Below are positions 741 to 15,296 of a stretch of DNA of 15,296 nucleotides, one piece after another; the first letter of the stretch is position 1; each line of letters begins with the position of its first letter. The position numbers and the translations under genes were made by a program. This DNA is from Holophagales bacterium (GTDB lineage: Bacteria > Acidobacteriota > Holophagae > Holophagales > Holophagaceae). Under the pieces are notes generated by a model. It was not told the origin of the DNA. It did not search any database and saw only the letters and a list, made by a program, of their open reading frames with translations. Location of the stretch: positions 1 to 15,296 of the forward strand of contig JAITCJ010000113.1 in assembly GCA_031283145.1 (NCBI GenBank), in the 5' to 3' direction.

Positions 741-759
741 ATAATAATAGCCAACAAAT

Positions 760-796: not shown

Positions 797-868
797 GAGC
801 CTGAAAAGAGATTAGATTAGGACGCTCAGGCAGAATGACAGCACGTTGATGGCTATCCGGTGGGATTT

Positions 869-904: not shown

Positions 905-906
905 AG

Positions 907-1233
907 GCAATATTTCTTTTAGTTTTTGGTTCAGTCAGCCCCTGTGTCGGCAGGCACGACAGCCTTGTGATGCCGTGCATAGACATCAGAGCAATGTCCT
1001 ATTTTCGGCATAATAATTGTAGAAGATATTCAAAAGAACTCATTTATTGTTCATTAACGAGGCTTGGCGGCACACGGCAAATAGATCTGAAAACTTAGGC
1101 AAACATTGAATATTACTTCCTTTTGCTATATCTGTCAGAGTTGAACGCTCGGGAACAGGCCTGGGATGAAATAAGGGAAAAATTTTTTGAAAATAATTTT
1201 TTCTTGTGGAAAAAAATCGTGTATGTGAAATAA
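907..1233 (+). pseudogene. Decayed IS630-type (DDE) transposase remnant, C-terminal half
   Basis: No long ORF exists here, but three reading-frame pieces line up in order with the transposase at 11336-12434. They are VFGSVSPCVGRHDSLVMP (frame from 922), then HLLFINEAWRHTA (a different frame, around 1040-1080), then YLSELNAREQAWDEIREKFF (back in the first frame, about 1126-1185), which runs to a stop at 1231-1233. The matching pieces in the other copy are VFSAVSPVGGCHDSLVLP, YILVFMYQAAWHKA and YSPELNPQEQVWDELREKSL. At least two frameshifts are present, and the second catalytic Asp is Asn (INEAW). The N-terminal half is missing and the palindrome at 869-904 lies at the break. A weak continuation, LLDECVAKG, can be read up to about 1275. 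Confidence 0.8.
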
Positions 1234-1278
1234 TTCACAATTTGAAGTTACTGGATGAATGTGTAGCAAAGGGTTAAC

Positions 1279-1725
1279 ATGATGGAAGGCAATCCATATC
1301 ATACAATCGGCCCATTGACTGGCTATTGGTGGACTTTGTATGATCTGTCGTATAACGATATCTCTTTTGCATGCTCACATCTTCTTATCGAAGAACGTAT
1401 TAGCTCCGTAAAGGACGTGGGGGGGGTTGAGGCGTATTACAGTAAAGAAGCCTGGACGGCGTACGATGGCTGTACTGAACAAAAGGCCGCCGTCTGCGCC
1501 GTGTTTGATGCGTATCACGGCAGCTTTTCCGCTGTCAACGTGTGGTTGCGCGCAATGTCCAGAATTATTGAAAGTGCCTTAATAGGTGGCGATAAAAAGA
1601 TTGTTCGGTTTCTTGGGAGCAATTCTCAACGTAAGATATGGAACGCTATCGGCGGCGGCATTCGTCGGCTGTTCGGAATTCTGCGCGTCAAATCAGTTAG
1701 TACCATGATTTTTTCAGCTAGTTAG
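1279..1725 (+). CDS. Hypothetical protein, 148 aa, with an internal G8 tract
   Basis: I do not recognise this protein. It starts at ATG 1279 (a second ATG follows at once) with AAAGGG 6 bp upstream, and reads through to TAG, ending 28 bp before the NuoE-like gene. It is mildly hydrophobic and rich in aromatic residues (GYWWTLYDLSY), with a basic C-terminal stretch (IRRLFGILRVKS). No signal peptide is evident. Eight consecutive G residues (1419-1426) lie inside it, so one slipped base would truncate it. Its first 20 codons lie where the end of the old IS630 copy would be expected, and PLTGYWW faintly recalls the end of such transposases, so the true start could be further in. It could be a decayed gene. 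Confidence 0.4.
   Translation: MMEGNPYHTIGPLTGYWWTLYDLSYNDISFACSHLLIEERISSVKDVGGVEAYYSKEAWTAYDGCTEQKAAVCAVFDAYHGSFSAVNVWLRAMSRIIESALIGGDKKIVRFLGSNSQRKIWNAIGGGIRRLFGILRVKSVSTMIFSAS
1419..1426 (+). repeat. Poly-G tract, G8, inside the hypothetical ORF
   Basis: Eight uninterrupted G residues encode part of the DVGG segment. The frame is open with eight G. This is the same length as the tract at 8189-8196, where the frame is broken. Confidence 0.9.
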
Positions 1726-1737
1726 ATAACCATATTT

Positions 1738-1743
1738 GAGGGA
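1738..1743 (+). promoter_or_regulatory. Ribosome binding site that sets the NuoE-like start
   Basis: GAGGGA lies 10 bp before ATG 1754. It overlaps the in-frame TTG at 1736, which would otherwise be the first possible start, so the ATG at 1754 is preferred. Confidence 0.7.
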
Positions 1744-1753
1744 TGGACAAACC

Positions 1754-2254
1754 ATGATTCAAGAAAGTTGCCGACCAGAAGCGGGGGCGTTTGAAAAAAT
1801 GTTGTGGCAGTATCGCGGCGAGCCTGGAATGCTCATTCCCATGCTACAGGCCTCGCAGGAAAGCTACGGCTATGTGCCACCGGACGCCATTGAACGGATA
1901 TCTTACGTTATGGGGATTCCCGAAGCGGAGATATACGGCGTCATTACCTTTTATAAGCAGTTCCGCCTGAAGCCGCTGGGCAGGCACATCGTCCGGCTCT
2001 GTAAAGGGACGGCATGCCATGTCGTTGGCGCAGAAACAATTGGGCAGGTCATTTCCGATGAACTAAACGTCGCGCCTGACGAAACGACCGAAGACGGCAT
2101 TTTTACTTACATGGTTGTAGCCTGTCTCGGCTGTTGTAGCCTCGCGCCTGCTATGATGATCGACAACCAGACTTATGGACGTCTGACGCCGCAGACGACC
2201 CGCAAACTGCTTCGCCAGTATCGGCGCAATGCGGCGGCTGAGAGCGCGTCATAA
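1754..2254 (+). CDS. NuoE-like thioredoxin-fold [2Fe-2S] subunit of an NAD(P)H-linked complex
   Basis: This 166-residue protein is close to the family's usual 150-175. Its C-terminal thioredoxin-like fold carries the four cluster ligands in the pattern CKGTAC (C83 and C88) and CLGCC (C124 and C128). The N-terminal helical part contains PMLQASQESYGYVP and EIYGVITFYKQF, both typical of NuoE/HydC. In complex I, HydABC and related enzymes this subunit docks on the FMN subunit and carries the N1a-type cluster. It is the first gene of a tight operon with the NuoF-like gene (60 bp downstream) and the GltD/NuoG fusion. No other nuo genes are present, so it belongs to a soluble NuoEF-type enzyme rather than respiratory complex I. 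Confidence 0.93.
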   Translation: MIQESCRPEAGAFEKMLWQYRGEPGMLIPMLQASQESYGYVPPDAIERISYVMGIPEAEIYGVITFYKQFRLKPLGRHIVRLCKGTACHVVGAETIGQVISDELNVAPDETTEDGIFTYMVVACLGCCSLAPAMMIDNQTYGRLTPQTTRKLLRQYRRNAAAESAS

Positions 2255-2257
2255 ATG

Positions 2258-2284
2258 TAGGGACGGCTCTTAGCGGCCGCCCTA
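2258..2284 (+). other. Intercistronic hairpin between the NuoE-like and NuoF-like genes
   Basis: TAGGGACGGC (2258-2267) pairs with GCCGCCCTA (2276-2284) with one bulged A and an 8-nt loop. No T-run follows, so it is more likely an mRNA-processing or stabilising structure than a terminator. It lies 20 bp before the SD sequence CGGAGG of the next gene. Confidence 0.45.
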
Positions 2285-2314
2285 AACAACGATTGGCAGG
2301 AAATCGGAGGTTTT

Positions 2315-4072
2315 ATGCGGGAAGTGTTGGTAGGGTTGGGTTCGTGCGGGCTGGCAGCCGGCGGCCTCAAGGTATATGAACGATTTGAGGAACTTCTCGG
2401 TTCCGGCGAAAGCTGCGTTTCGGCGGCCGTCCTGAAAAAAACCGGCTGTATCGGCATGTGCCACGCAGAAGTGCTGGTTGAAGTCAGGGACGATGCACAC
2501 GGCAGTGTTTTTTACGGAAATGTTTCGCCCGAAAAAGCGGCTGCCATTTTTGAGAGCCATATAAAAAACGGCCGGATCGCAGATGAATTCAAATTTGACG
2601 CAGTCGCGGCCACGACGAAACAAAAGCGTATCGCCTTACGCAACAGCGGTGTTATCAACCCGGACAACATTGATGAGTACATCGCCCGTCAGGGGTACAA
2701 GGCGCTCGAAAAAGTGCTGACTGAGTTGACCCCAGCGGAAGTCATAACGACCGTATCAGAGTCGGGATTACGCGGACGCGGCGGCGCGGGTTTCCCGACG
2801 GGCACGAAGTGGAAATTCGCCGCAGCGAGCAAAGGCGATCATAAATATATCATCTGCAACGCCGACGAAGGCGACCCAGGCGCGTTTATGGATCGGAGTC
2901 TGCTTGAAAGCGATCCGCATTCGCTCTTGGAGGGAATGGCCATCGCCGCCTACGCGATCTGCGCGGATACGGGTTACATTTACGTTCGCGCGGAGTACCC
3001 GGAAGCGATCAAACATCTTAAACATGCGATCTCCCAAGCGACAAAGCGAGGATTCCTCGGGGACAATATTTTTGGCAAAGGTTTTAAATTTAATATCCGG
3101 CTGAAAGAAGGCGCGGGTGCGTTTGTGTGCGGCGAAGAAACGGCGTTGATAGCCTCCATCGAAGGTAAACGCGGGATGCCTAGGGTACGTCCGCCTTTCC
3201 CGGTCGAATCGGGACTCTGGGGATATCCAACGTCAATTAACAACGTGGAGACATTCGCAAACGTCGCCTGGATTATTCTGAACGGGCCGTCGGCATTCAA
3301 CTCGCTTGGGACCGAAGGCTCAAAAGGAACCAAAGTATTCGCCCTCGCCGGCAAAATCAAAAACGGCGGCCTTGTGGAAGTCCCGATGGGAATGACGCTC
3401 AATGAGGTCATTTACGACATCGGCGGCGGCACGACGCTGGGCGGGCCTTTCAAAGCCGTGCAAATGGGCGGTCCATCCGGCGGATGCATTCCAGCGAACC
3501 TCGGCAGCACACCGGTGGATTACGAACAGATCACGGCGACCGGCGCAATCATGGGTTCCGGAGGTATGGTCGTCATGGGCGAAACCACCTGTATGGTGGA
3601 CGTCGCCCGATTTTTCCTCTCTTTTACTCAGAACGAATCATGCGGCAAATGTACTTTCTGCCGAATCGGCACCAAGCGGATGCTGGAAATTCTTGAGCGT
3701 ATCTGCGTCGGCAATGGAAAAGAGGAAGACATTCCGCTTCTCCGTGAACTAGGCGAGCAGATCAAGTCCAGTTCCCTGTGTGGACTGGGGCAAAGCGCGC
3801 CTAATCCCGTGCTAACAACTCTTCGGTATTTTCTGGACGAATACACGGCGCACATCAAGGATAAAAAATGTCCCGCAAAGTCCTGTCTCGCGCTGGTTGA
3901 TTTTGCCATTGACGCTGAAAAGTGCATAGGTTGTGGGCTGTGCATCCCGTCCTGCGCCGTCGGCGCAATTACGGGTGAAAAGAAAAAGCTTCATACGATA
4001 GATGTTGCAATGTGCGTGCGTTGCGGCAAATGTATGACTGTCTGTACTGTCAACGCAATCTTAAAAAGATAA
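2315..4072 (+). CDS. NuoF/HydB-like FMN, NADH-binding iron-sulfur subunit
   Basis: This 585-residue protein has the domain order of bifurcating NuoF homologues. Residues 1-90 are a thioredoxin-like [2Fe-2S] domain (C11, C34, C45 and C49 visible). Residues 150-300 are the FMN/NADH domain, with GLRGRGGAGFPTGTKW at about 151-166 and CNADEGDPG at 181-189. An SLBB domain follows. A [4Fe-4S] site is formed by ESCGKCTFC (C443, C446, C449) and C489. The C-terminal 2x[4Fe-4S] ferredoxin has C537/540/543/547 and C567/570/573/577. The extra N- and C-terminal FeS domains separate it from complex I NuoF and match HydB/BfuB/StnB-type proteins, where the FMN site exchanges electrons with NAD(H). The SD is CGGAGG at 2305-2310. 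The next gene starts 18 bp after the stop. Confidence 0.95.
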   Translation: MREVLVGLGSCGLAAGGLKVYERFEELLGSGESCVSAAVLKKTGCIGMCHAEVLVEVRDDAHGSVFYGNVSPEKAAAIFESHIKNGRIADEFKFDAVAATTKQKRIALRNSGVINPDNIDEYIARQGYKALEKVLTELTPAEVITTVSESGLRGRGGAGFPTGTKWKFAAASKGDHKYIICNADEGDPGAFMDRSLLESDPHSLLEGMAIAAYAICADTGYIYVRAEYPEAIKHLKHAISQATKRGFLGDNIFGKGFKFNIRLKEGAGAFVCGEETALIASIEGKRGMPRVRPPFPVESGLWGYPTSINNVETFANVAWIILNGPSAFNSLGTEGSKGTKVFALAGKIKNGGLVEVPMGMTLNEVIYDIGGGTTLGGPFKAVQMGGPSGGCIPANLGSTPVDYEQITATGAIMGSGGMVVMGETTCMVDVARFFLSFTQNESCGKCTFCRIGTKRMLEILERICVGNGKEEDIPLLRELGEQIKSSSLCGLGQSAPNPVLTTLRYFLDEYTAHIKDKKCPAKSCLALVDFAIDAEKCIGCGLCIPSCAVGAITGEKKKLHTIDVAMCVRCGKCMTVCTVNAILKR

Positions 4073-4090
4073 CGGTGTAAAGGAAAGCAG

Positions 4091-7000
4091 ATGGCTACGG
4101 AAATGAAACAGACTTCTCAAATCGAATTGACGGTCAACGGCCAAAAAGTAACTGCGGCCGCCGGACAGACCATTCTTGATGTGGTACGCGAACAAAAGCT
4201 CGACGACATTCCGACTTTGTGCCACGACCCTCGGCTTGAACCTTACGGTTCTTGTTTCCTGTGTGTCGTTGAAGTTAAAGGCTGGTCCAGACTTATTCCC
4301 GCCTGCGTTACGCGCGTCACTCAGGGTATGGAAGTCACGACGCGAAACCCCCGCATTGTCAGCTCACGCAAGACCGCCCTGGAATTGCTCCTGACCGATC
4401 ATTACGCAGACTGCCTTTGCCCTGGAAAGAACGCCTGTCCGGCAGGCGTAGATGTCCAGGGCTACATGAGTCTAGCTTCGATGGGCCATTACAGGGAAGC
4501 GCTCGACCTTATCCGTGAAAGCAATCCACTCCCCATGACATGCGGGCGCGTCTGCGTGCGAAAGTGTGAGGTCAAGTGCCTGCGGCAGCATGTAGATGAG
4601 GGCGTCGGCGTCAACTTTATTAAACGCTATACCGCTGAAATTATTGGCCCTGTTTTGAAAAAACCCGACGTTAAAGCTTCCGGACGGCGCGTGGCGATTG
4701 TCGGCGGCGGCCCGAGTGGGCTGACCTGCGCTTATTACCTTACAATGAAAGGACACGAGGTTACGATCTTTGAATCGCTGCCGAAATTAGGCGGGATGCT
4801 CCGCTACGGCATTCCAGAATACCGGCTTCCCCGTAAGGAACTCGACGACGAGATACAGGGGATTCTTGATTTGGGCGTCAAGGTAGAAATCGGTAAAACG
4901 CTTGGGAAAGATTTTACGATAGACAGTCTGCGCTCGAAAAACGGCTTTAACGCGGTATTTGTCGCGCTTGGCGCGCCGCTCGGCAAAAAGATGGGCATCG
5001 AAAACGAAGACTCCATAGAGGGAGTTAGCCCGGCGCTTGATTTTCTGCGTGACTGTGAACTCAAAGGCGTGCCGAAACTTACTGGCAAGGTGGCAGTGGT
5101 CGGCGGAGGCAATTCCGCGATCGACGCCGCGCGCAGCTCTATCCGCTGCGGCGCTGAAGAAGTCATGATTCTCTATCGCCGCACCAGGAAAGAGATGCCG
5201 GCGCATCATGAAGAAGTGGACGCCGCCGAAAAAGAAGGCGTCAAACTTGAAATACTCGCCGCGCCGCTGGAACTCCTGGCGGAAAACGGCAAACTTACGG
5301 CCATACGATGCCAGCGTATGAAACTGGGCGAACCTGACGCGAGCGGACGACGCAAACCCGTGCCTATTCCGGGCGCGATTGTTGATTTTCCATGTTCTTA
5401 CGTTTTTGCCGCCATAGGGCAGGACACCGATCTTGGTGCGCTTGACAAGGAGCCTGAAAACGGCAAATTGGCCGTCAGCCGCTGGGCCACTATAAATGCC
5501 GACAACGCAACGATGGAGACCAGTGTCAAAGGCGTTTTTGCCGGAGGCGACGTGGTACTCGGCCCCGCCACCGTTATAGAGGCAATCGCCCAGGGAAAGA
5601 CAGCCGCGTTAGCGATTGATCAATATCTGATCGACGGGAAAGCGGTTGGAGACGCTCCCGAATTTCATAGCAGACGCGAATTTTTTGGCGCGTTTCCCGA
5701 GGGAACTTTCAGTGAAGTCTGCCGCCAGGCTCGAAATATCATGCCGGAACGCGAAGCATCTGAGCGGGTTCGCGATTTCGTCCAGGTGGAATTGGGTCTT
5801 GACAGATCGCAAATGAATAATGAGGCCGACCGCTGCATGGAATGCGGATGCAAATCCGTATTTAAGTGCGATCTGAAACGTTACGCCGGTGAATACGGCG
5901 TCGATCTCACGCGCCTGGTCGGTGAAGTCCGACGCCATAAGGCCGATCTAAGTCATCCGCTGATTTCGCTTGATCCCAATAAATGCGTTCTTTGCGGCCG
6001 ATGCGTCCGCACCTGCTCGCAAGTGGTAGGGCTCGGCGTAATTAGTTTTATGCGCCGTGGATTCAGCACTGTGGTAAGTCCGGCTCTGGGCAAATCACTG
6101 ATCCAAAGCGATTGTATCGCCTGCGGCTCTTGTGTTGAAAACTGTCCCACCGGCGCGCTTGAAGCCAAGCTGCCTTACGGCAAACAGGGGCCGTGGAAGA
6201 CGGAAAACAAACCTTCGGTCTGCGCATTCTGTTCCGTTGGGTGCGACCTAAATCTGAATGTTGCGGCGGACGGACTGCTTTGGGCAACTTCTGCCGAAAG
6301 AGCGCCGCTTGAGCGTGGCGGACTCTGCATGAAAGGCCGCTTTGGTACCGGACTCCTGCAGGTGAAACGTCTGCAATTCCCTATGGTGAGAAAGTCTGGA
6401 ACGCTCATTGAAACCTCCTGGAAGGCAGCGTTTGATGCCGCCGCCAAAGTACTGCGGAATGCCATGGAAGAGCACGGTGCCGACGCGGTCGGCGTTTTGG
6501 CAGCACCTCGTATGACGCTTGAGGAAGCGTGGCTGACGCGGCTGGTTGCCGGAGCGATAGGAACAAAGGAAATCGGTTGTTTTGGGCAGGCTTGGCGCGG
6601 CGGTCCACGGAGTGACCTAGACCAGATTTTAGGCGGCACGTTTTCTACCTGCGCGTTTGAAGATATTGCCGGTGCCGATCTCATCTTGCTGGCCAGCGCC
6701 GATCCGGAAACGACGCATCCGGCGCTCGGCATGGCGATACGCCGCGCCCTCAAACGCGGCGCGGAACTGGCGGTTGTAAATTCGTTGCCGATAAGTATTC
6801 TGCGGCCTGAAGACCTCTGGCTTGACGCCCGCAGGGGTACCGCCGGAATGATCTACGCAACGGCAATAGCGCGGGTGTTGAAAAACGGCAATGGCAATCA
6901 GCCGATTGACGCCGCCGATCTCGCCGCGTCTGTCAAGCTTTTGACCGAGATTGGGACGGCGTCCGTTTCCGGCGTTAACGCGGCGAAGATTGTGGCTCTT

Positions 7001-7720
7001 GCGGATAAAATTTCAGCAGCGAATAAAGTCGTTGCCATTTATGACCTTGACGATACGCTGGAACGCTCTGCGGATGATCTCGCGGGGCTGGCCCAACTGC
7101 TTGCCGTTACCGGGCATCTCGGCAAACAAGGAGAGGGCATACTGCTTTTGCGGACGGATTGCAATGGCGTTGGTGCGCGTCTTACAGGCATTGATACACT
7201 TACGGATACGGAAAAACTCCGTGCGGCGCTGGTGATGTTTGAAAATCCATTCAGAGGTGGGCGTGTACCCGATAAACTGGCGAACCTGACATCGCTGGTT
7301 GTTGTCGATCATTTCCTTACAGAAACGGCGGAAAAAGCGGAAGTTATTTTGCCCGCCGCGACGATGGCCGAATCCACGGGAACAGTCGTAAGCTTTGACA
7401 ACCGGACGGTTGGAATTGACGCCGCCGTGCGTCCCGTCTGCGGTTTATCCAACCTGGAAATCCTGGCGGAACTTGCCGCAGCTTTGGGACTGACCGGCCT
7501 TTCATATTCACCGGATGACGCACGCAGAGATTTGGCCGCGTCGCTGGGTATAAACGCTGTTGATATTGAAAAGGCGCGCGCCGAAAAAGCGTGCTGGCCG
7601 GGCAAAGCCGCCACGGTCAGAACACTGATTCCGCTAAAGACAGTTACGACCGTTCCGAAGGTTGATCTTCTTTCCTACGCCTCAATGGATGGCTTTGTAA
7701 AGGAAAAATTAAACATGTGA
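4091..7720 (+). CDS. 1209-aa fusion: NuoG N-domain, GltD/NfnB module, ferredoxins, inactive formate-dehydrogenase-like domain
   Basis: The domains run as follows. Residues 1-80 hold a NuoG-type [2Fe-2S] site (C44, C55, C58, C72). About 100-118 is a His/Cys cluster site (H104, C108, C110, C116). Residues 151-163 are the GltD-type CxxxCxxxCxxxC. FAD binds at VAIVGGGPSGL (201-211), NAD(P)H at VAVVGGGNSAIDAAR (334-348) with YRRTRKEMPA (362-371), and GGDVVLGPATVIEAIAQGK (485-503) completes the flavin site. C582/585/587/593 form a further cluster motif. A ferredoxin pair follows (C632/635/638/642 and C675/678/681/685). CAFCSVGC plus C746 is the N-terminal cluster motif of molybdopterin enzymes. The remaining roughly 460 residues resemble FdhA/NuoG, but the position of the catalytic Sec/Cys-His reads Trp835-Arg836, and no C-terminal dinucleotide-binding domain is evident. 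With the two upstream genes it probably forms a soluble transhydrogenase or bifurcating complex (BfuABC/Stn-like) linking NAD(H), NADP(H) and ferredoxin. The exact reaction is inferred. AAAGGAAAG precedes the start. Confidence 0.9.
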   Translation: MATEMKQTSQIELTVNGQKVTAAAGQTILDVVREQKLDDIPTLCHDPRLEPYGSCFLCVVEVKGWSRLIPACVTRVTQGMEVTTRNPRIVSSRKTALELLLTDHYADCLCPGKNACPAGVDVQGYMSLASMGHYREALDLIRESNPLPMTCGRVCVRKCEVKCLRQHVDEGVGVNFIKRYTAEIIGPVLKKPDVKASGRRVAIVGGGPSGLTCAYYLTMKGHEVTIFESLPKLGGMLRYGIPEYRLPRKELDDEIQGILDLGVKVEIGKTLGKDFTIDSLRSKNGFNAVFVALGAPLGKKMGIENEDSIEGVSPALDFLRDCELKGVPKLTGKVAVVGGGNSAIDAARSSIRCGAEEVMILYRRTRKEMPAHHEEVDAAEKEGVKLEILAAPLELLAENGKLTAIRCQRMKLGEPDASGRRKPVPIPGAIVDFPCSYVFAAIGQDTDLGALDKEPENGKLAVSRWATINADNATMETSVKGVFAGGDVVLGPATVIEAIAQGKTAALAIDQYLIDGKAVGDAPEFHSRREFFGAFPEGTFSEVCRQARNIMPEREASERVRDFVQVELGLDRSQMNNEADRCMECGCKSVFKCDLKRYAGEYGVDLTRLVGEVRRHKADLSHPLISLDPNKCVLCGRCVRTCSQVVGLGVISFMRRGFSTVVSPALGKSLIQSDCIACGSCVENCPTGALEAKLPYGKQGPWKTENKPSVCAFCSVGCDLNLNVAADGLLWATSAERAPLERGGLCMKGRFGTGLLQVKRLQFPMVRKSGTLIETSWKAAFDAAAKVLRNAMEEHGADAVGVLAAPRMTLEEAWLTRLVAGAIGTKEIGCFGQAWRGGPRSDLDQILGGTFSTCAFEDIAGADLILLASADPETTHPALGMAIRRALKRGAELAVVNSLPISILRPEDLWLDARRGTAGMIYATAIARVLKNGNGNQPIDAADLAASVKLLTEIGTASVSGVNAAKIVALADKISAANKVVAIYDLDDTLERSADDLAGLAQLLAVTGHLGKQGEGILLLRTDCNGVGARLTGIDTLTDTEKLRAALVMFENPFRGGRVPDKLANLTSLVVVDHFLTETAEKAEVILPAATMAESTGTVVSFDNRTVGIDAAVRPVCGLSNLEILAELAAALGLTGLSYSPDDARRDLAASLGINAVDIEKARAEKACWPGKAATVRTLIPLKTVTTVPKVDLLSYASMDGFVKEKLNM

Positions 7721-7809
7721 GGTATTGCAAAACATCCTTGGAGCACGGATTTTACCATAGGTAATATAACGATTTGCAGTCGGTTAGTGGCTGTAATTTG
7801 ATTGTGTGA

Positions 7810-7910
7810 TACCAGAGTTCCTATTGCCAATGCTACAAATGGTCGTGCGAATGCGGCTGTTTGCGGCATGTTGCGCTACCGCTTTTGCACAGCAGCAATG
7901 TGATTTGGTA
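7810..7910 (-). mobile_element. 101-bp TACCA/TGGTA miniature element, copy 1 (flanked by TGA)
   Basis: The element runs from TACCAGAG to GATTTGGTA and is flanked by TGA on both sides (7807-7809 and 7911-7913). Read on the minus strand, it shares GCGCAACAT at about offset 35 and an end of the form ATTGGCAATAGGAACTCTGGTA-like (compare GTTGGCAATGAGAATTGGTA) with the copy at 10989-11086. Its length matches the other two copies (98 and 99 bp). It has no coding capacity, so it is probably moved in trans by an IS transposase. It sits just upstream of the membrane-protein gene at 7953. Confidence 0.78.
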
Positions 7911-7914
7911 TGAT
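7885..7914 (+). promoter_or_regulatory. Probable sigma70-type promoter at the element/flank junction
   Basis: TTGCAC (7885-7890) is followed by an 18-bp spacer and TATGAT (7909-7914), a near-consensus -35/-10 pair. The -35 lies inside the miniature element. The -10 is made by its terminal TA joined to the flanking TGAT. Transcription would start near 7921, 20 bp before the AAGGAG ribosome binding site at 7941-7946. Confidence 0.55.
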
Positions 7915-7952
7915 ATATTGGAGTGTAAAATTATTTTTACAAGGAGTTTCTC

Positions 7953-8440
7953 ATGGACGAAAACACTGCCAACCCCAAAAAATTTGGTCGTTTTACCAAG
8001 CACATTATTGTGGGCAGCGTTATCAGCGGCCTGTTATCCGCAATTCCCCTTTTGAGTTGCTTAAACATAATCTTTTGCCTGCTGAATGTGGCGTCTATAG
8101 TTTTCGCGCTGTATCTGTATCTGAATGCTAATTCGGAAGATATGATAACTATCGGCGAGTCTGCGGGATTTGGGGCCGTTGCCGGAGCGGGGGGGGATTG
8201 ATTTCTGGAATCGTTGGTATCTTAATGAATATGCTGTTTGGCGCTGCCTTAGCTTCTTGGATGTCCGCCAACTTCCCTGGGGTCGATAGTGATAATTTAC
8301 TTGGCATCACAGCCTTCTCAGGCGGCGTTATAGCTTTCATGGTCATTCCATTACAGATGGCTCTGTTCGCTGGCTTTGGCGCGCTGGCCGGACCTTTGGG
8401 GATGCAATTTTTCTTTAAGACGCGTATCCACAGACCCTGA
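7953..8440 (+). pseudogene. Small multi-spanning membrane protein, frame broken at a G8 tract
   Basis: The first part starts at ATG 7953 behind AAGGAG and stops at 8199-8201, just after a run of eight G. The second part, in the +1 frame from about 8198, continues to 8440. One additional G would join them as ...GAVAGAGGGLISGIVGILMN..., giving about 163 residues. The joined product begins with a short charged N-terminus (MDENTANPKKFGRFTK) and then has about four to five hydrophobic segments: IIVGSVISGLLSAIPLL, IIFCLLNVASIVFALYLYL, GLISGIVGILMNMLFGAAL, AFSGGVIAFMVIPLQMALFA and the adjoining FGALAGPLG. I do not recognise the family. The break could be decay, a sequencing error in a homopolymer, or an OFF phase of a slippage-controlled gene. 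Its likely promoter comes from the element at 7810-7910. Confidence 0.65.
8189..8196 (+). repeat. Poly-G tract, G8, at the frame break
   Basis: There are eight uninterrupted G residues exactly where the two halves of the membrane-protein gene change frame. Nine G would restore one continuous ORF. Confidence 0.9.
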
Positions 8441-8537
8441 ACCGGATTTTCAGTCTCATCCTGATATTGTCTGCGGCTGGCAAACTGTTGTTGGTTTCGC
8501 TATTGCCGTTGCGGATGGATTTTTGCTGTGAGGAATA

Positions 8538-8580
8538 GGCGGTGGTTTATTGCTGTTTGATTGAGAACAAGCAAACCGCC
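8538..8580. other. Composite hairpin upstream of the antiporter gene
   Basis: GGCGGT (8538-8543) pairs with ACCGCC (8575-8580). Inside it TTGCTGTT pairs with AACAAGCAA with one bulge around an 8-nt loop. It lies 40 bp before the antiporter ATG and has no T-run, so a 5'-leader structure is as likely as a terminator. Apart from this hairpin I see nothing else definite in 8441-8620. Confidence 0.4.
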
Positions 8581-8620
8581 AATCTCGCGGTCATGATAAA
8601 GAAACTGGATAGTTTTATTT

Positions 8621-10603
8621 ATGCTCGTATTTGAATATGTGTTGATACTTCTCGCGGCGGTTTTGTTGTCAAATTTGATTAACCGCTTTGTGCCTGTATT
8701 GTCCGCGCCGATTTTGCAGATTGTTTTAGGAGCGGCTGTCGCGTTAATCCCTTTTGGCGCGTTCGGCTTTGAATTTGATCTGGAACCGGAATTATTTTTC
8801 GTTTTGTTCATCGCGCCGCTCGTGTTCTATACGAGCATGACCGCTGACAAAAAGACCCTGTGGGATATGAAAAGCCCGATTTTAGGCTCTGCCGTGATAT
8901 TGGTTGTTATAACGGTACTGACGGTTGGCTATGCGTTGCACGCGATTGTGCCCATTATTCCGCTGAGCGCGGCGTTCGTGCTGAACGCCGCGCTCAGCCC
9001 AACGGACGATGTGGCCGTGAGCGCGGTAGGAAAGCGCGTGGCCATACCGCAAAAAATTATGGGAATCTTGTCCGGAGAATCCATAATTAACGACGCTTCG
9101 GGTATAGTGTGTTTTCAATTCGCTATCGCCGCCGCTGTAACAGGCTCATTCTCAATAGCCAAAGCTACGGGTCAATTTCTGTTAGTGGGTTTGGGCGGCA
9201 TTCTGGCTGGTTTGGCTTTCACACTATTGAAATACGCGCTTGTAAAGTGGCTTCGTTCCCTCGGCATAGAAAATGTCACATTGCATATTTTAATAGGGTT
9301 GCTGACGCCGTTTATAATATACATGGCCGCCGAAAGACTTGGCGTCAGTGGCATTTTAGCCGTGTTCGCCGCCGGGGTTTCCCACTCCTTCGCGCGGGTT
9401 CAGTTGAACCCCGAAACAGTCAGCCTGAATACCGCCCTTGAGAGTATGTGGTCAATGCTGGCGTTTACTTTTGAAGGTATAGTGTTCGTCATGTTGGGTA
9501 CGCAACTGCCTGGCATTTTGAAAACTATTGAGAAACATTCCATTGGCGGATGGCAAATCGCGGGCTGTGTCCTGTTGCTTACATTGGTTTTTGCGGCTCT
9601 CCGCTTTGTATGGTGGATATTGGCTATACGAAAAAAGACTTATCAAGACCAGGGAAAAATCATTGGGCGAATAAAATCCGGCGTGATTTTCAGTCTCGCC
9701 GGCGCGCGCGGCACGGTAACGCTGGCAAGCGTGATGTCAATTCCGCTCATGCTGACGGACGGAAACCTTTTCCCCGTGCGCGACTTGATTATTTTGCTTG
9801 CGAGCGGCGTTATAGTCGTGTCGCTGCTCATTACGAATTTCTTATTACCCTTATTTGTTGAGCGGAAAGCAGAGCAGGGTAAAAATCAGTCGGAATCGGA
9901 GGCTTATGCTGAAATTATTCAAAGAGTAATGACGCGGCTATTATCCGAAGCGACGGAAGAAAACCGAGCGGCTACCCTAACAGTCGTAAGAAGCTATTAC
10001 GAGCGAAACGCCGCGTCTATGGGCGAGAATTTGCGCTTAGAAACGACTGAGGCTAAAAAACTGAAAAGGCAAGTTTTTATATGGGAAAAAGAAAACACCA
10101 CAGCCCTGCTTGAAAATGGCGTTGTCCCCGAAGCCGTAGCCAAACACTTCATTGAGTTTTTAGACACTCGTATCCAATCAGAAAGAAATGAAAGGTTTTT
10201 TCAAAAATTTACTTGGCTTATTAATAAATTGCATCGCTTTAATCATTTAAAAAGTGAAAAAAATACCAGAAATGATTTTTTTAAACTTTTGACCGCCAAT
10301 TCACTGTTTGTTTTAGAAAAGCTGAATAAAATAAGAAATAATGAAAATGCTGATGCCGTTGATAAATTAATTTCATCTTACGAACTAACCGCCGCTTTCC
10401 ATATGGGGGGCGGATGGGAAAAGGAAAGAATTGCCAATGCCGAAGCCGCTGAATCTCTCATTTATCAAGTCGCCTCGAAAGGTTTTCATATGGAACGCGG
10501 GCTTATTCACGAAATGTTTGAAGCGGGGCGTATTTCAAGAGAAACCGCTAAAGAAATGCGCGGCAATATCGCAGCGTTGGAAGCAAGATTTCAAATGGGT
10601 TGA
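8621..10603 (+). CDS. CPA1-family monovalent cation/proton antiporter
   Basis: This 660-residue inner-membrane protein has about 12 hydrophobic segments in residues 1-420 and a roughly 230-residue charged cytoplasmic tail. Family hallmarks are LSPTDDVAVSAVGKR (residues about 125-139) and GILSGESIINDASGIV (about 149-164), which contains the Asn157-Asp158 pair typical of CPA1 (NhaP-like, electroneutral) exchangers. RGTVTLASVMSIPL near the end of the membrane domain is also typical. It should exchange Na+ or K+ for H+; the ion cannot be told from sequence. The tail contains a helical region (about 430-540) and the segment YELTAAFHMGGGWEKERI, as seen in long bacterial CPA1 proteins. The start at 8621 gives the usual short N-terminus before the first helix, but its ribosome binding site is weak. 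The next gene begins 33 bp downstream. Confidence 0.92.
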   Translation: MLVFEYVLILLAAVLLSNLINRFVPVLSAPILQIVLGAAVALIPFGAFGFEFDLEPELFFVLFIAPLVFYTSMTADKKTLWDMKSPILGSAVILVVITVLTVGYALHAIVPIIPLSAAFVLNAALSPTDDVAVSAVGKRVAIPQKIMGILSGESIINDASGIVCFQFAIAAAVTGSFSIAKATGQFLLVGLGGILAGLAFTLLKYALVKWLRSLGIENVTLHILIGLLTPFIIYMAAERLGVSGILAVFAAGVSHSFARVQLNPETVSLNTALESMWSMLAFTFEGIVFVMLGTQLPGILKTIEKHSIGGWQIAGCVLLLTLVFAALRFVWWILAIRKKTYQDQGKIIGRIKSGVIFSLAGARGTVTLASVMSIPLMLTDGNLFPVRDLIILLASGVIVVSLLITNFLLPLFVERKAEQGKNQSESEAYAEIIQRVMTRLLSEATEENRAATLTVVRSYYERNAASMGENLRLETTEAKKLKRQVFIWEKENTTALLENGVVPEAVAKHFIEFLDTRIQSERNERFFQKFTWLINKLHRFNHLKSEKNTRNDFFKLLTANSLFVLEKLNKIRNNENADAVDKLISSYELTAAFHMGGGWEKERIANAEAAESLIYQVASKGFHMERGLIHEMFEAGRISRETAKEMRGNIAALEARFQMG

Positions 10604-10636
10604 AACGGCTATATCCTATAAGATAATAAAAGTTCT

Positions 10637-11157
10637 ATGCGTCCTGTACACGTTTCATACTTAATGAGATTTTTGGCCGCTTTAATAGGCGCGTTGCCTT
10701 GGGCGCTATCTGTTTTTGGCCAGTACGCTCTGGGCATGCCGCTGTTCAGGGGGCTTTGCCACCAGATGCCTGAGCGTACACTGATACTCTGCGGCGCGCC
10801 AATGGCTGTATGCAGCCGCTGCGCGGGTATTTACGCTGGTATTGCCATTGGATCTGTCATACCTCCTTTCGGCTTTATGGCTCGACATGGACGCGCGGCT
10901 GTATGGATAGCTTTTTCTGTCGCGCTGCTGGATGTTGCCATACAAGACTACCTTGCGCATTCAATAAATCACGGCTTTCGGATAGTGATACCAATTCTTA
11001 TTTCTAATGTGAGATAACACTCACGCAACATCTTTATTTTCAAGATATAGTGAACTGTTGGACAACGTTGGCAATGAGAATTGGTATGACAGGTCTTATC
11101 GCGGGTTTGGCGGCAAGCGCTTTTTTATTCAGTTCAATGGAAAAATCAAATGCCTGA
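10637..11157 (+). pseudogene. DUF2085 membrane protein, interrupted by a 98-bp element
   Basis: The N-terminal 117 codons (10637-10987) encode a small membrane protein with the DUF2085 signature: GLCHQMPERTLILCGAPM, then AVCSRCAGIYAGIAIG. The Cys/His spacing suggests metal binding, but no function is established. At 10989 a 98-bp element begins and the frame closes at 11017. Removing the element and one TGA copy joins GFRIV to TGLIAGLAASAFLFSSMEKSNA and a TGA stop at 11155-11157. That restores a 139-residue protein of normal DUF2085 form, so the gene was intact before the insertion. The truncated 126-residue product may still be made. The start has a weak SD and lies 33 bp after the antiporter gene, so co-transcription is likely. 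Confidence 0.85.
10989..11086 (+). mobile_element. 98-bp TACCA/TGGTA miniature element, copy 2 (inside DUF2085 gene)
   Basis: The terminal inverted repeat is TACCAATTCTTATT against AATGAGAATTGGTA, with one mismatch in 14. TGA flanks both ends (10986-10988 and 11087-11089). The core contains ACGCAACAT, and the tail CAACGTTGGCAATGAGAA matches the tail of copy 1. Excision of 101 bp (98 plus one TGA) restores the host reading frame exactly. It has no coding capacity. Confidence 0.88.
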
Positions 11158-11335
11158 AGCCATAACAGAAAGCGATGCCAATTTTAGGCATTGTTGGCAA
11201 TGACGGCCAAGCCAAGATTGAGAGGTTGAGAATCAAAAACTGTCTGATAGCAAGTTGCGATCAAATGATGTCACATTTCATACCAACTTGCAATCAAGTC
11301 TGCCGTAATATAAAATCGGTTTTGAAGGAGGCGCC

Positions 11336-12434
11336 ATGCGGCCGCCAAAACCGATACCGGAGGAAAGGCTCGCAGAGCTGGCGGAGTTCGGCAGACGGAG
11401 ACCGAAGGGCAAGGAGCTGTTGCGCTTCCTCTGCGTCTGGCTGCGCGTGGAGCACGGCATGCGGGCCGCGGCGGGGCGGGGGCGTTGCGCGAGGGTGCGT
11501 GCGGCGGGAGGCGCCGCCAGATTATGACCGTCGGGGAGGAAGCCGAGTTCCTCGGGGGTTTCCTCAAGGCAGCCGGCGACGCGTCGGTGCTTGTGGCGGG
11601 CGAGATAAAGGCCGTGCTGGAGGCGAGGCTGGGGCGGAAGGTTCACGAGACGACCGTGTACCGGATGCTCAAGCGGCACGGCTGGCGGAAGGTCGCGCCC
11701 GGACCGAGGCACCCGAGGCAGGACCCGAAGGCCGCCGAGGCCTTCAAAAAGGGGGTACGCGGAGGCGGTAGCGAAGGCACTGGCGGAGGCGAAGAAGAGG
11801 AAAGCGCCGCTGAGGATCGCGTTCCAGGACGAGGCCAGGATCGGCAGGATAAGCGACCCCAGGAGATGCTGGGCGCCGCGGCCGACGCGCCCCGGCGCAG
11901 ATGGTGAGGGAGTACGCGTACGTGTTCAGCGCCGTCAGCCCGGTCGGCGGATGCCACGACAGCCTCGTCCTGCCGTGGGCCGACACGGAGGCCATCTCCC
12001 TGTTCCTAAAGGAGGTGGCAGGGCGGCACCCGGACGAGTACATCCTCGTGTTCATGTACCAGGCCGCGTGGCACAAGGCGAAGGCCCTCAAGGTCCCGCC
12101 GAACATGACGCTGGCCTTCCTGCCGCCGTACTCCCCCGAGCTGAACCCGCAGGAGCAGGTCTGGGACGAGCTGCGCGAGAAGTCCCTGGCCAACAGGCTG
12201 TTCATACCAATTTGCGTTCAAATCTGCCGTATCGCAGCGTTGCTTTTGAGGAACGGTGCCGCGAACCGCTGAATGTAAATGCAACATTGGACGCAATCTG
12301 GTATCAAAAGCCTGGACGCCGTGGTGGACGCGGCTGTGGAGGGCCTGCGGCGCATCGAGGCCTCGCCCGGCGCGGTGGCGCGGCTTACGAGGCGGGACTG
12401 GATGGGATCGCTGCCGGAGAGTATTGGAAGTTAA
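11336..12434 (+). pseudogene. IS630-family DDE transposase, multiply disrupted
   Basis: It begins at ATG 11336 behind GGAGG. Continuous homology needs three frame changes, near 11475 (G-rich run), near 11750 (AAAAAGGGGG) and near 11885. The segments are MRPPKPIPEERLAELAEFG (start), FLKAAGDASVLVAGEIKAVL with VHETTVYRMLKRHGW (helix-turn-helix part), RIAFQDEARIGR with the first catalytic Asp, YVFSAVSPVGGCHDSLVLPW, and LPPYSPELNPQEQVWDEL with the catalytic Glu. The second catalytic Asp is replaced by Tyr (VFMYQAAWH, where DQAAWH-like is expected). A 99-bp element splits NRLF from KSLDAVVDAAVEGLRRIEAS, and the gene ends at TAA 12432-12434. It cannot encode an active enzyme as read. Some of the frameshifts could be assembly errors in GC-rich runs, but the Asp-to-Tyr change and the insertion cannot. 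Confidence 0.88.
12205..12303 (+). mobile_element. 99-bp TACCA/TGGTA miniature element, copy 3 (inside the IS630 transposase)
   Basis: The ends are TACCAATTTGCGT and ACGCAATCTGGTA, a 13-bp terminal repeat with two mismatches. TCA flanks both sides (12202-12204 and 12304-12306). Removing 102 bp restores the transposase as ...NRLF-KSLDAVV... in one frame. Its first 30 bp match the inner left end of the host IS (11281 onward) at about 26 positions, including TCTGCCGTA. The match extends, gapped, through the region of the IS ribosome binding site, which suggests an internal-deletion derivative of such an IS. It places a stop codon in the transposase at 12270-12272. Confidence 0.88.
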
Positions 12435-12524
12435 GGCAATATTTATTGCAAACTGGTATGATCGTAACTTGACATAGCGGCGATTGCTCACCGCCATACA
12501 GTATCTGGAGTCTGCCTCAAAAAC

Positions 12525-12563
12525 TTCCGTATCAAAATCGCGGAACGCGATTTTGATACGGAA
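12525..12563 (-). terminator. Strong hairpin terminator of the NTF2-like gene
   Basis: There is a perfect 18-bp inverted repeat (12525-12542 and 12546-12563) with a 3-nt loop. Read on the minus strand it follows the NTF2-like stop codon by 11 bp and is followed by GTTTTTG. Position and T-run suit a Rho-independent terminator. Confidence 0.8.
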
Positions 12564-12574
12564 CCGTCACATAT

Positions 12575-12967
12575 TCAGCAAGGATAGGCGGAGAACTGGT
12601 CTGCGACAGCCAACCAGTGCCCGTTCTCTTTCACTACAAAAAACAGGTCGCGGCCTGCTTGTTGTATTGTGTTTCCGTTCATGTCAAAGGACATATCAAA
12701 GTCGTAAGCCACTACAGCAGCGTTTTCATAGACGTGGATAACCGGATTTAATTCTCTCCAGTAATGAATTTTGGCGGCTCCGGTAAAGGACTTCCACCCT
12801 TCTATACAAGCGGGTCCGCCCTCAACGCGATGCCGACTCGTGGGCGTCACCGCAACCATGTTTGCGTGGAAGTAGTTTACCAGTTCATCTGGGTTGCCCT
12901 TTGTCCAGACGTCATTCATGGCCAGAATCATGGACCAGATTTCAACTTTTGTTGGATCATCAAACAT
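12575..12967 (-). CDS. NTF2/SnoaL-like domain protein
   Basis: This 130-residue protein has the alpha+beta cone fold pattern of the NTF2-like superfamily: an N-terminal helix with IWSMILAMNDVWTKGNPDELVNYF, then VAVTPTSRHRVEGGPACIEGW, ELNPVIHVYENAAVVAYDF, GRDLFFVVKENGHWLAVADQFS and AYP. This subgroup often carries small-molecule binding or isomerase-like roles, but no substrate can be assigned. The ATG at 12967, with GGGGGT just upstream, is preferred over the TTG at 12997, which would add ten residues that do not fit the domain. It is a single gene, ended by the hairpin at 12525-12563, and separated from the methyltransferase gene upstream by that gene's terminator. Confidence 0.8.
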   Translation of the reverse strand: MFDDPTKVEIWSMILAMNDVWTKGNPDELVNYFHANMVAVTPTSRHRVEGGPACIEGWKSFTGAAKIHYWRELNPVIHVYENAAVVAYDFDMSFDMNGNTIQQAGRDLFFVVKENGHWLAVADQFSAYPC

Positions 12968-13103
12968 CCGTACCCCCAGACTACAGACTATAGTCAATCA
13001 ACCTTAAAATCAACACAAACCATACTTGTTGCGCCACCAACAATGCAAACAGTGCTTGAAGCGGCCTGAAGGTTTTCTATAAACTGCCTCTGGAAAAGCA
13101 CTT

Positions 13104-13151
13104 CCAACAAACCTGAAAAACAGACTGAGGCCTGTTTTTCAGGTTTGTTGG
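13104..13151 (-). terminator. Perfect 20-bp stem terminator overlapping the methyltransferase stop codon
   Basis: The arms at 13104-13123 and 13132-13151 are exactly complementary over 20 bp, with an 8-nt loop. The methyltransferase stop (13139-13141 on the minus strand) lies inside the stem, so its last residues (NNQQT) are encoded by the repeat. The left arm matches 751-770 in 19 of 20 bases, so this is a dispersed terminator-like repeat. Confidence 0.75.
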
Positions 13152-13957
13152 TTATTGCCCTGAATCAGATTCATTTTACTCATGAGTATTGCCCCTGCCG
13201 CTGAAATGTTAAGGCTGTCTATCTGCCTTTCTAAGGGGATTCGGATGTGTTTTGTACACTTGGTCTGCCAGAAGCTGTCCAGGCCGTGGGATTCTGCCCC
13301 TAAAACAAGGGCTGTTCTTGGGGCTGGCATCCATTCCCAAAAGATCTCGGCGTTTGACGTAGCGGCTGTCCCAACTATTTCGGATTTAACATTTGGGCAA
13401 TGTTGAAGCCATTTGTCTAATATATGATCCGGGTAATTGGATTTGAGTATGGGTATTTTCCAAACAGCGCCCATTGAAACCCTGACACAGCGTCTTGCGA
13501 ATGGGTTTGGACCTCTGCCAATCAGTATGCCGTCTATAGCTAAGGCTGCTGCTGTACGCGAGAGCTGGCCGAGATTATCAACATTGTCTAAATGGGGCAG
13601 TACCAAGAGGCGCGATGCTTGCGATAATTGCGTCTCAAGCGGAGCTTCGGGAACGGCACAGCAGCATAGTACGCCGCGATGAAAATTAAAACCGACCAAG
13701 GAGTTCAATTCATCGGTGTCAAGCGTGAGGAGTCTGGCTTGATGGGGCGTTTTGTCTTTCCATTCTTCAATCTGGCTTGAGTCGCATAAGAGTGAGACGA
13801 ACCGCAACATTCCTTGCTCGGCGGCTCGAATGGCTTCTTCAACAAGGTATCTGCCTTCACAGATGAAGCAGGTACCTATATCTGAATGTTGCGCAAGTTC
13901 AGCTCCATGAAGCCCTCTGTAAGGAGCTAAATCTATTGAACTCATGGCGGTGCGCAT
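13139..13957 (-). CDS. SpoU/TrmH-family RNA 2'-O-methyltransferase
   Basis: This protein of up to 272 residues has a C-terminal trefoil-knot (SPOUT) methyltransferase domain. Motif 1 is DNVDNLGQLSRTA (about 124-136), with the conserved Asn and Arg134. Motif 2 is LVLGAESHGLD (217-227). Motif 3 is RIPLERQIDSLNISAAGAIL (239-258). The N-terminal part, FICEGRYLVEEAIRA, is the L30e-like substrate-binding domain. It uses S-adenosylmethionine to methylate a ribose 2'-OH in tRNA or rRNA; the target nucleotide cannot be inferred. Met1 (13957) and Met5 (13945) are both possible starts, and neither has a clear SD. AT-rich TAAAATATA about 10-20 bp upstream could be a -10 region. The end of the gene lies inside its terminator. 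Confidence 0.9.
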   Translation of the reverse strand: MRTAMSSIDLAPYRGLHGAELAQHSDIGTCFICEGRYLVEEAIRAAEQGMLRFVSLLCDSSQIEEWKDKTPHQARLLTLDTDELNSLVGFNFHRGVLCCCAVPEAPLETQLSQASRLLVLPHLDNVDNLGQLSRTAAALAIDGILIGRGPNPFARRCVRVSMGAVWKIPILKSNYPDHILDKWLQHCPNVKSEIVGTAATSNAEIFWEWMPAPRTALVLGAESHGLDSFWQTKCTKHIRIPLERQIDSLNISAAGAILMSKMNLIQGNNQQT

Positions 13958-13994
13958 AGGGCTATATTTTACGCTTTTTGGGTTTTGGTTGTAT

Positions 13995-14028
13995 ATAGCA
14001 GTTCAACTTTTTGTAGTTGAACTGCTAT
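13995..14028. repeat. Short palindromic repeat, TATAGCAGT family, copy 2
   Basis: A perfect 14-bp inverted repeat (13995-14008 and 14015-14028) has a 6-nt loop. The left arm, ATAGCAGTTCAAC, is identical to the copy at 870-882. It lies in the gap upstream of the methyltransferase gene and overlaps the end of the possible gene fragment on the minus strand. Confidence 0.75.
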
Positions 14029-14159
14029 GCCGGGATTTGCTTGCAGAATGAGGCTGACAACGTCGAAATGTCGGCTTGTGAGAAGATGGACGGATAATAG
14101 CCAAGCGATTGACGTGGCGGTCTTGCGTAGTAAATGGATACCAAGACTTCATGGCCGCG

Positions 14160-14202
14160 TATTGCTTGTAGGTGGGCGCTGCCCGCCGTTGCGCAAGCAA
14201 TA
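14160..14202. other. 43-nt composite hairpin upstream of the repeat lipoprotein gene
   Basis: TATTGCTTG (14160-14168) pairs with CAAGCAATA (14194-14202). Nested inside, GGTGGGC (14171-14177) pairs with GCCCGCC (14181-14187) around a GCT loop, allowing one G-T pair. It lies just upstream of the putative -10 at 14220. It could be a terminator for a plus-strand transcript, an operator-like palindrome or a repeat. Confidence 0.45.
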
Positions 14203-14216
14203 ATACAAGTGAAAAT

Positions 14217-14225
14217 TGCTATAAT
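14217..14225 (+). promoter_or_regulatory. Extended -10 promoter for the repeat lipoprotein gene
   Basis: TTGCTATAAT contains a perfect TATAAT (14220-14225) preceded by the TGn extension. No good -35 is visible at 16-18 bp, which extended -10 promoters tolerate. Transcription would start near 14232, about 53 bp before the ATG. Confidence 0.5.
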
Positions 14226-14249
14226 TGGAATAAAATAAAATTATATCCA

Positions 14250-14269
14250 GCGCAAGTTTTTTGTTGCGC
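14250..14269 (+). other. 5'-leader hairpin just before the ribosome binding site
   Basis: GCGCAA (14250-14255) pairs with TTGCGC (14264-14269) around GTTTTTTG. It ends 4 bp before the GGAG (14274-14277) of the lipoprotein gene. It may modulate translation or stabilise the message. Confidence 0.4.
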
Positions 14270-14284
14270 GAACGGAGTTATGAC

Positions 14285-15296
14285 ATGAACAAACAGTTGC
14301 TATACACAATCGCGGCCATGATGGCGCTGCTGGCTGTATTTGCTGCTTGTAAGAGAGAGAGCGTTGTGTATGTGGCGGGAGCGGAATACAAATCGCGGAG
14401 AAATAGCGTCATTGGGATATGTAAAAACGGAACTGCTCAAGACCTTACAGATGGAAAATCTAGGGCATGGGCCTCTTCCATTTTTGTGTCGGGTACGGAT
14501 GTATATGTGGCTGGAACTGAAGAAGATGAACTTAAAAATGTTGTTCCTACGGTCTGGAAAAACGGCGCTGCCCAACGTCTGAGCAGCAGAAATGCCCATA
14601 CGTCTGTTTCTTCTATTTATGTATCCGGCGCGGACGTATATGCGGTTGGTAATGAACAAGCCTCTATTGAAAAGCCTTCTGTCGCCGTACTCTGGAAAAA
14701 TGGCGACTCGCAAAATCTCAGCGATGGGGTTGACAACGCTATTGCTTCTTCCGTTTTTGTGTCCGGCGATGGTGTATATGTCGCTGGATATGAATGCAAT
14801 GCGCAGGGAATTCAGGTTGCCATTCTCTGGAAAAATGGCAGAGCTATGAGTCTAAGCAATGGGAAAGAACATGCGATGGCTATGTCTGTTTTTGTATCGG
14901 GTAAGGATGTGTATGTGGCGGGAATTGATGGAGGTACTCCCACGCTTTGGAAAAATGGAGAAGCCAAGGGTCTTAGAGGTATTCAATATGTTTCTTCTGT
15001 TTTTGTGTCCGGCAATGATGTGTATGTGGCGGGATGGGGATACGAACACTATAGTAAGCTGGATTTAATGTTGCGCGTTGCCAAGCTCTGGAAAAACGGC
15101 GTTGTCCAAAATCTTTGCGATGGCGATCACGAGTCTTCAGCCGAATCCGTTTTTGTGGCCGGCGATGATGTGTATGTGGCCGGAATGGAGAGAAATTTGC
15201 GAAAAACGAATACAGCCATACTTTGGAAAAATGGAGAAGCGCAGAGTCTCAGCGATGGAAGCCGCGACGCTGCGGCCGAATCTGTTTTTGTATTAA
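14285..15296 (+). CDS. Secreted lipoprotein of tandem WKNG repeats (beta-propeller-like), 3'-truncated
   Basis: The frame is open from ATG 14285 (SD GGAG at 14274-14277) to the window end, 337 codons without a stop. The N-terminus MNKQLLYTIAAMMALLAVFAAC is a signal peptide ending in a lipobox-like site, with Cys22 as the likely lipidated residue. The rest consists of repeats of about 40-55 residues of the form SVFVSG.DVYVAG...(I/V/T)LWKNG.AQ.LSDG. Seven KNG units are visible (first as ICKNG). The alternating strand pattern and regular aromatic/Gly positions suggest a beta-propeller or similar all-beta fold exposed on the cell envelope. Similar repeat lipoproteins are common in spirochaetes and other gut bacteria as I recall; function is unknown. 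DNA-level similarity between units is high enough that repeat number could change by recombination. Confidence 0.82.
   Translation, partial: MNKQLLYTIAAMMALLAVFAACKRESVVYVAGAEYKSRRNSVIGICKNGTAQDLTDGKSRAWASSIFVSGTDVYVAGTEEDELKNVVPTVWKNGAAQRLSSRNAHTSVSSIYVSGADVYAVGNEQASIEKPSVAVLWKNGDSQNLSDGVDNAIASSVFVSGDGVYVAGYECNAQGIQVAILWKNGRAMSLSNGKEHAMAMSVFVSGKDVYVAGIDGGTPTLWKNGEAKGLRGIQYVSSVFVSGNDVYVAGWGYEHYSKLDLMLRVAKLWKNGVVQNLCDGDHESSAESVFVAGDDVYVAGMERNLRKTNTAILWKNGEAQSLSDGSRDAAAESVFVL

Follow-up and report, generated by a model that had tools for sequence, protein, structure and literature searches.

Three-base TNA duplications at miniature elements and at IS630-type elements of a DD31E branch, seen from a Holophagales genome

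Duplication of a TA dinucleotide serves to recognise transposable elements of the IS630/Tc1/mariner group. The short bacterial elements RUP and Correia are thought to be derived from IS630 and are flanked by TA duplications. Duplications of three bases, TNA, are typical of the IS1031 group of IS5 elements. ISY100 and IS630 are stated to duplicate TA (PMC2170065), and Fot elements have TAA duplications in 341 out of 385 cases (PMC7386202). We here deal with 15,296 nucleotides of a Holophagales bacterium (GenBank assembly GCA_031283145.1, contig JAITCJ010000113.1, positions 1 to 15,296 of the forward strand), called the window hereafter. They hold miniature inverted-repeat transposable elements (MITEs) and a decayed insertion sequence (IS) of the IS630 type. 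The genome they belong to, the own genome of the following text, is a metagenome-assembled genome (MAG) of 1.32 Mb in 207 contigs that is 64% complete.

Very probably, the MITEs of the window are non-autonomous and fall into three families, and its decayed IS belongs to an IS630 branch in which 31 residues separate the second catalytic aspartate from the glutamate (DD31E); this branch joins its elements with a three-nucleotide stagger at TNA and mobilises the MITEs. The DD31E transposase would excise the element such that the terminal TA (TACCA...TGGTA) goes along. The joins to the two strands of a TNA target would then be staggered by three nucleotides, fill-in of the staggered joins would leave TNA on both sides, and the enzyme may act in trans on several MITE families. 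A first-pass annotation of the window had described mobile MITEs that are linked to IS630-like elements and have a duplication of three bases, not TA, and this much has stood. It had also assumed one family, a fixed TGA site and an IS beginning at 11248, which has to be given up. The features of the window are:

7807..7809: left copy (TGA) of the target duplication of the MITE at 7810-7910
7810..7910, + strand: MITE of family A, 101 bp, between open reading frames (ORFs), with TACCA/TGGTA ends; 40 matches of the family in the own genome
7911..7913: right copy (TGA) of the same duplication
10637..11157, + strand: gene of a DUF2085 membrane protein (Pfam PF09858), interrupted by a MITE; matches in congeners align across the joined site
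10986..10988: left copy (TGA) of the target duplication of MITE C
10989..11086, + strand: MITE C, 98 bp, with TACCA/TGGTA ends
11087..11089: right copy (TGA) of the same duplication
11248..11280: left part of a degenerate F-type MITE, split by the IS, with TGA in front (11245-11247); it resumes after 12461
11278..11280: left target triplet of the IS (TCA; the F consensus has TGA)
11281..12458, + strand: decayed IS630-type (DD31E) insertion sequence with the ends TACCAACTTGCAATCAAG and TTTATTGCAAACTGGTA
11485..11907, + strand: transposase piece with HTH_33 (E 8e-15)
11901..12434, + strand: transposase piece with DDE_3, into which MITE B (12205-12303) has inserted; tyrosine at the position of the second catalytic aspartate
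12202..12204: left copy (TCA) of the target duplication of MITE B
12205..12303, + strand: MITE B, 99 bp, with TACCA/TGGTA ends
12304..12306: right copy (TCA) of the same duplication
12459..12461: right target triplet of the IS (TGA)
12462..12499: remnant of the F-type MITE on the far side of the IS; the similarity is weaker beyond

The MITEs at 7810-7910, 10989-11086 and 12205-12303 all start with TACCA and end with TGGTA, and their flanks read TGA/TGA, TGA/TGA and TCA/TCA, exactly as annotated before. They are short, non-coding, bounded by inverted repeats, flanked by target duplications and, by the copy counts for families other than C, multicopy. Since the three belong to three different families, the core and the tail common to them, once taken as the mark of a single family, look mostly like common terminal sequence. 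The claim that removal of an element together with one trinucleotide repairs the protein was confirmed, as to the reading frame, at both interrupted genes. Once MITE C and one triplet are taken out, the DUF2085 frame is open, and its alignment to the match from each of three congeners has no gap at the site; joined according to the TA model, the frame meets a premature stop at the join. Similarly, the transposase piece across 12205-12303 keeps its frame after a single-TCA join.

In the own genome, the pattern ATACCA-N80..110-TGGTAT has 39 forward matches versus 1 for the reversed control pattern. Family A, which includes the element at 7810-7910 and has a 99-base consensus, is found there 40 times; it had no match in the 59 relatives searched, three congeners among them. 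Its flank pairs, taken from BLAST matches without any condition on the flanks, show an identical triplet in 29 of 39 distinct cases, always TNA (12 TGA, 11 TCA, 4 TAA, 2 TTA). Family F, 153 bp long, has identical TNA triplets in all nine complete copies of the retrieved loci; four further pairs from the end-pattern listing are equal (C90, C98) or unequal (C54, C147). When the end-defined MITEs of the own genome were pooled (85-112 or 150-156 bp with TACCA/TGGTA ends), 38 out of 44 had identical triplets, again TNA throughout (19 TGA, 9 TCA, 6 TAA, 4 TTA). Five of the remaining six have TNA on both sides with a differing middle base, and one deviates otherwise. Beyond the triplet no base is fixed; A/T is preferred two positions off. 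Instead of the fixed TGA site, we thus see TNA, both in family A (29/39) and in the pool (38/44), with TCA, TAA and TTA occurring beside TGA.

How the loci were collected bears on these numbers. Some loci of the pooled set and of the empty-site set were fetched by patterns that required A/T, or TNA (one mismatch allowed), beside the ends; the A/T condition was also set for the congener loci. Such patterns favour TNA but not an equal middle base, and the BLAST set of family A is free of this bias. Left out of the pooled count were 22 of 66 tabulated rows, namely eighteen pairs of 46-47 bp and four of 185-199 bp, the former being internal palindromes of F or solitary ones, e.g., L108 (TAA/TTA); the F copies C54, C147, C90 and C98 stand outside this table. 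In the congeners G001-G003, 19 of 35 listed MITE-like places were fetched, picked by end similarity, and two were dropped for one non-TNA flank (L298, L308). The 17 places with TNA on both sides comprise 11 identical, 4 complementary and 2 other pairs.

Near-palindromes of 46 bp, like TACCAACTTGCAATCAAACG...CGTTTGATTGCAAGTTGGTA, make up one end of F and are found on their own as well, with TNA flanks: C12:5562-5613 (TAA/TTA), C107:3201-3252 (TAA/TAA), C111:6340-6391 (TAA/TAA) and C94:6625-6676 (TAA/TCA).

Because family A lacks matches in the relatives, paralogous empty sites were taken instead, in a search space of 254 kb of own-genome loci, some of them overlapping. With up to two mismatches allowed, an empty site with a single TNA was found for 17 of 38 own-genome MITE insertions; two of these are doubtful (L038 twice, beside another element) and 15 are free of doubt. 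An earlier pass had yielded 14 matches, of which L038 is an artefact next to a neighbouring element. Empty sites of the form TNATATNA, which the TA model demands and which had been named beforehand as the observation that would overturn the three-base duplication, were sought in the same 254 kb and turned up for 0 of 38 insertions; their queries were three bases longer than the single-TNA queries, the limit of two mismatches being alike. The no-duplication form and the TNA-less form scored 0/38 each in these loci. By these counts and by the stop in DUF2085, TA duplication was rejected as the rule for the MITEs.

The IS had been given a start at 11248 and TGA on both sides. A partial copy on contig C117 shows, however, that its left end is 11281, with TCA as the outer triplet on the left and TGA on the right; what begins at 11248 is a MITE-like remnant of greater age. 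The joined IS flanks (11248-11280 plus the sequence after 12461) align to one end of F with a score of 59, or of 63 with the other triplet kept, and the maximum in 500 shuffles was 40. By this alignment, the IS apparently landed in an F copy older than itself, at a TGA of F. Near the F-type remnant, at 12525-12563 of the window, lies a perfect 18-bp inverted repeat with a loop of three bases.

By its transposase models, the IS is a member of the IS630 family. PF13358 (DDE_3) reaches 45.9 bits, above its cut-off of 28.6. With NF033545 (IS630), the DDE half of L081, an IS630-type element of congener G002, scores 136.9 bits (cut-off 100); the two window pieces score 35.4 and 73.4 bits, below the cut-off as fragments. 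Apart from the inserted MITE and the split frames, the tyrosine in place of the second catalytic aspartate means that the window copy is probably dead. Another IS630-type transposase fragment, with 40% identity to the window IS piece and one internal TAG, is located at 916-1203 of the window. IS630-type stretches are also seen at the contig ends of C87, C149 and C199; the assembly may break at repeats of an autonomous element.

A scan of named genomes gave relatives in Rhizobiaceae, Cloacimonadota, Planctomycetota and others; it also assigned two congener contigs to Holophagaceae/Holophagales MAGs, which, going by their isolate codes, may come from termites. Of 80 fetched loci, 47 were analysed and 33 left out, and end pairs were accepted at 15. 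L208 and L212, with one decayed end each, were dropped before counting, and L258, L260-L262, L266 and L271 are repeats of copies already counted. L253 yielded no ends; like the planctomycete and myxococcal loci, the ends of which are not defined, it does not enter the duplication data. The 25 distinct end-defined copies are mostly from Rhizobiaceae, and 20 of them are flanked by identical TNA. The others are complementary in four cases (L161, L201, L097 and the window) and AAA/TAA in one (L265). Most IS copies and MITEs alike (20/25 and 38/44) bear the three-base TNA and not the TA duplication of IS630. L202, L203 and L252, from Rhizobium freirei, R. lusitanum and R. tropici, have the same right flank and may be one inherited insertion.

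An empty site is available for the copy L192 of Rhizobium sp. CCGE 510. When its flanks are connected by a single TAA, they match 47 plasmid records; three of these were inspected. A plasmid of Rhizobium sp. C104 has exactly one TAA at the site, with a gap of three bases slightly further left; the other two have TAA plus an extra A.

In the window copy, in L081, in L097 and in the relatives, 31 residues lie between the second aspartate and the glutamate. Among the 120 nearest homologues, a regular expression detected this spacing in 115 and a spacing of 33 in one, and it missed four. The IS630 members used for comparison have 34 residues there (DD34E). A tree of 24 rows separates the 20 DD31E rows from the 4 of DD34E type at 100/100 support, the row of the window being long; of the 34 input loci, ten in which the regular expression detected no motif had been left out.

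Thirteen loci have the spacing of 34, and ends were accepted for six. None of these six has an identical outer triplet, as compared with 20 of 25 DD31E copies (Fisher exact p 0.0006). Since a TA next to the inverted repeat served to pick the DD34E ends, their TA flank follows in part from the selection, and the one informative point is the unequal outer triplet. L287 lacks a TA outside its best inverted repeat, and L286 has complementary outer triplets. No ends were accepted for L280, L282, L284, L255, L256 and L264, and L288 has no motif.

Does this amount to a change in a hallmark of the family? Perhaps: we tentatively suggest, at somewhat less than even confidence, that in the DD31E clade the former TA duplication has become a fixed transposon end, that the strikes fall three nucleotides apart at TNA, and that the Asp-Glu loop, shorter by three residues, is the structural correlate. 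One may go on to hypothesise that the shorter loop is the cause of the changed stagger. Judging by the sequences, the clade appears to extend over Holophagales, Rhizobiaceae and Cloacimonadota, where TNA is seen, and over Planctomycetota and Myxococcota, from which there are transposases only, with undefined ends.

A link between MITEs and IS is suggested by their ends. MITE B agrees with the window IS in 23 of 30 positions on the left and in 21 of 30 on the right, and ends matching MITE B are also present at C52, C129 and C160. The first 17 bases of the window IS end recur exactly in family F. The left end of MITE C matches the right end of L081 (23/30, ungapped), and its right end is like family A (18/22); one end of family A, in turn, is like the terminus of an IS630-type fragment that lies on contig C199 of the own genome (23/30). 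MITE B, one C end and one A end match IS630-type ends better than shuffles do. Overall, the MITE ends resemble two IS630-type end lineages: at one end, A and C are like a lineage of this genus, and B is like the window IS.

At 7953-8440 of the window, two overlapping ORFs join at a G run, which may be one gene with a frameshift or an assembly error. The loci L079, L024 and L101 of the own genome contain another interspersed repeat with stretches like GTTGAACTGCTATA and TATAGCAGTTCAAC, perhaps another mobile family.

Several findings weigh against a DD31E branch that joins at TNA and moves the MITEs. Among the full-length copies examined from Holophagae, none has an identical triplet: the window shows TCA/TGA, L081 TAA/TTA and L097 TGA/TCA; the copy on C16 is decayed at its right end and shows TTA at the left one. 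Two F copies, C54 (TCA/TGA) and C147 (TAA/TGA), carry unequal triplets too. The empty site of the window IS hardly discriminates when aligned to F, one TNA giving 63 or 59, the TA model 60 and no duplication 57. At the second end, both A and C are weak matches to IS ends. An intact autonomous copy was not found in the own MAG, which is 64% complete. Finally, we infer the mobilisation of MITEs in trans from end similarity.

The unequal triplets deserve a closer look. The full-length Holophagae copies of which both ends are known, three in number, are all complementary, and among the unequal TNA pairs 9 of 15 are complementary in the middle base where one third is expected (p 0.03); adding C54, C147, C94 and L108 makes it 11 of 19 (p 0.02). 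These statistics rest on pooled, non-independent copies. Complementary triplets could be caused by quasi-palindrome correction, by flank exchange or by a minority of TA-type insertions. The first possibility, in which TNA extends the terminal inverted repeats except for N, and template switching perfects the arms and leaves unequal complementary triplets, is rather unlikely. The excess of complementary pairs is in its favour, and so is the F consensus, in which TGA corresponds to the left TCA of the window IS. The statistics are weak, however, flank exchange between copies explains other pairs and could explain some complementary ones, and a few TA-type insertions would give complementary triplets as well.

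Far less probable is ordinary IS630/Tc1 insertion, with the terminal TA as the duplication and TNA...TNA as the trace of a preferred target TNATATNA, or, in a weaker form, such insertion in a minority of cases. Of course, the transposase is of the IS630 type, and ISY100 duplicates TA (PMC2170065). Also, a palindromic target centred on TA would give complementary pairs as observed (9/15 and 11/19), and the empty site of the window IS scores nearly alike, 60 vs 63. But a TA duplication does not predict identical triplets in 38 of 44 MITEs and 20 of 25 IS copies; taken as the rule, it conflicts with the empty sites, 0 versus 17 out of 38, and in DUF2085 it produces a premature stop.

An unrelated transposase with three-base TNA sites, such as that of the IS1031 group of IS5 for which these duplications are typical, might have moved MITEs that resemble IS630 ends by chance, which is just as improbable in view of the 17 exact end bases common to F and the window IS, the better-than-shuffled matches of B, one C end and one A end, and the same TNA signature at full-length IS630 copies, although no search aimed at IS5 was made in this genome.

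If the DD31E branch indeed joins at TNA, the stagger of a well-studied transposase fold can change within a bacterial branch. DD31E with TNA and DD34E with TA, both present in rhizobia, would then be a natural pair for asking what sets the stagger, and a search restricted to TA flanks would put the ends of such elements in the wrong place and overlook the MITEs. A literature search outside ISfinder and most subscription papers yielded, among the papers listed, neither a bacterial IS630 element with a 3-bp or TNA duplication nor the term 'DD31E', which does not prove that a TNA-duplicating IS630 is unrecorded.

The closest known systems each have part of this pattern. With the DD34E members of IS630, such as ISY100 or ISRm2011-2 (so named in the Sinorhizobium record L283), the elements share the NF033545/DDE_3 transposase, the terminal inverted repeats and a length of about 1.1-1.2 kb; these differ in their TA duplication (for ISY100, PMC2170065) and in the 34 residues between aspartate and glutamate, as opposed to three-base TNA and 31 residues here. 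The pogo/Fot elements are likewise a branch of the IS630-Tc1-mariner group that departs from the TA rule; in contrast to ours they are eukaryotic, have DDxD transposases and duplicate TAA instead of TNA (PMC7386202 for the TAA duplications). The IS1031 group of IS5 has the three-base TNA duplication in common with the elements described here, but its transposase belongs to a different family. RUP and Correia, finally, are short, non-coding and bounded by inverted repeats like the MITEs of the window, and differ from them by their TA duplications.

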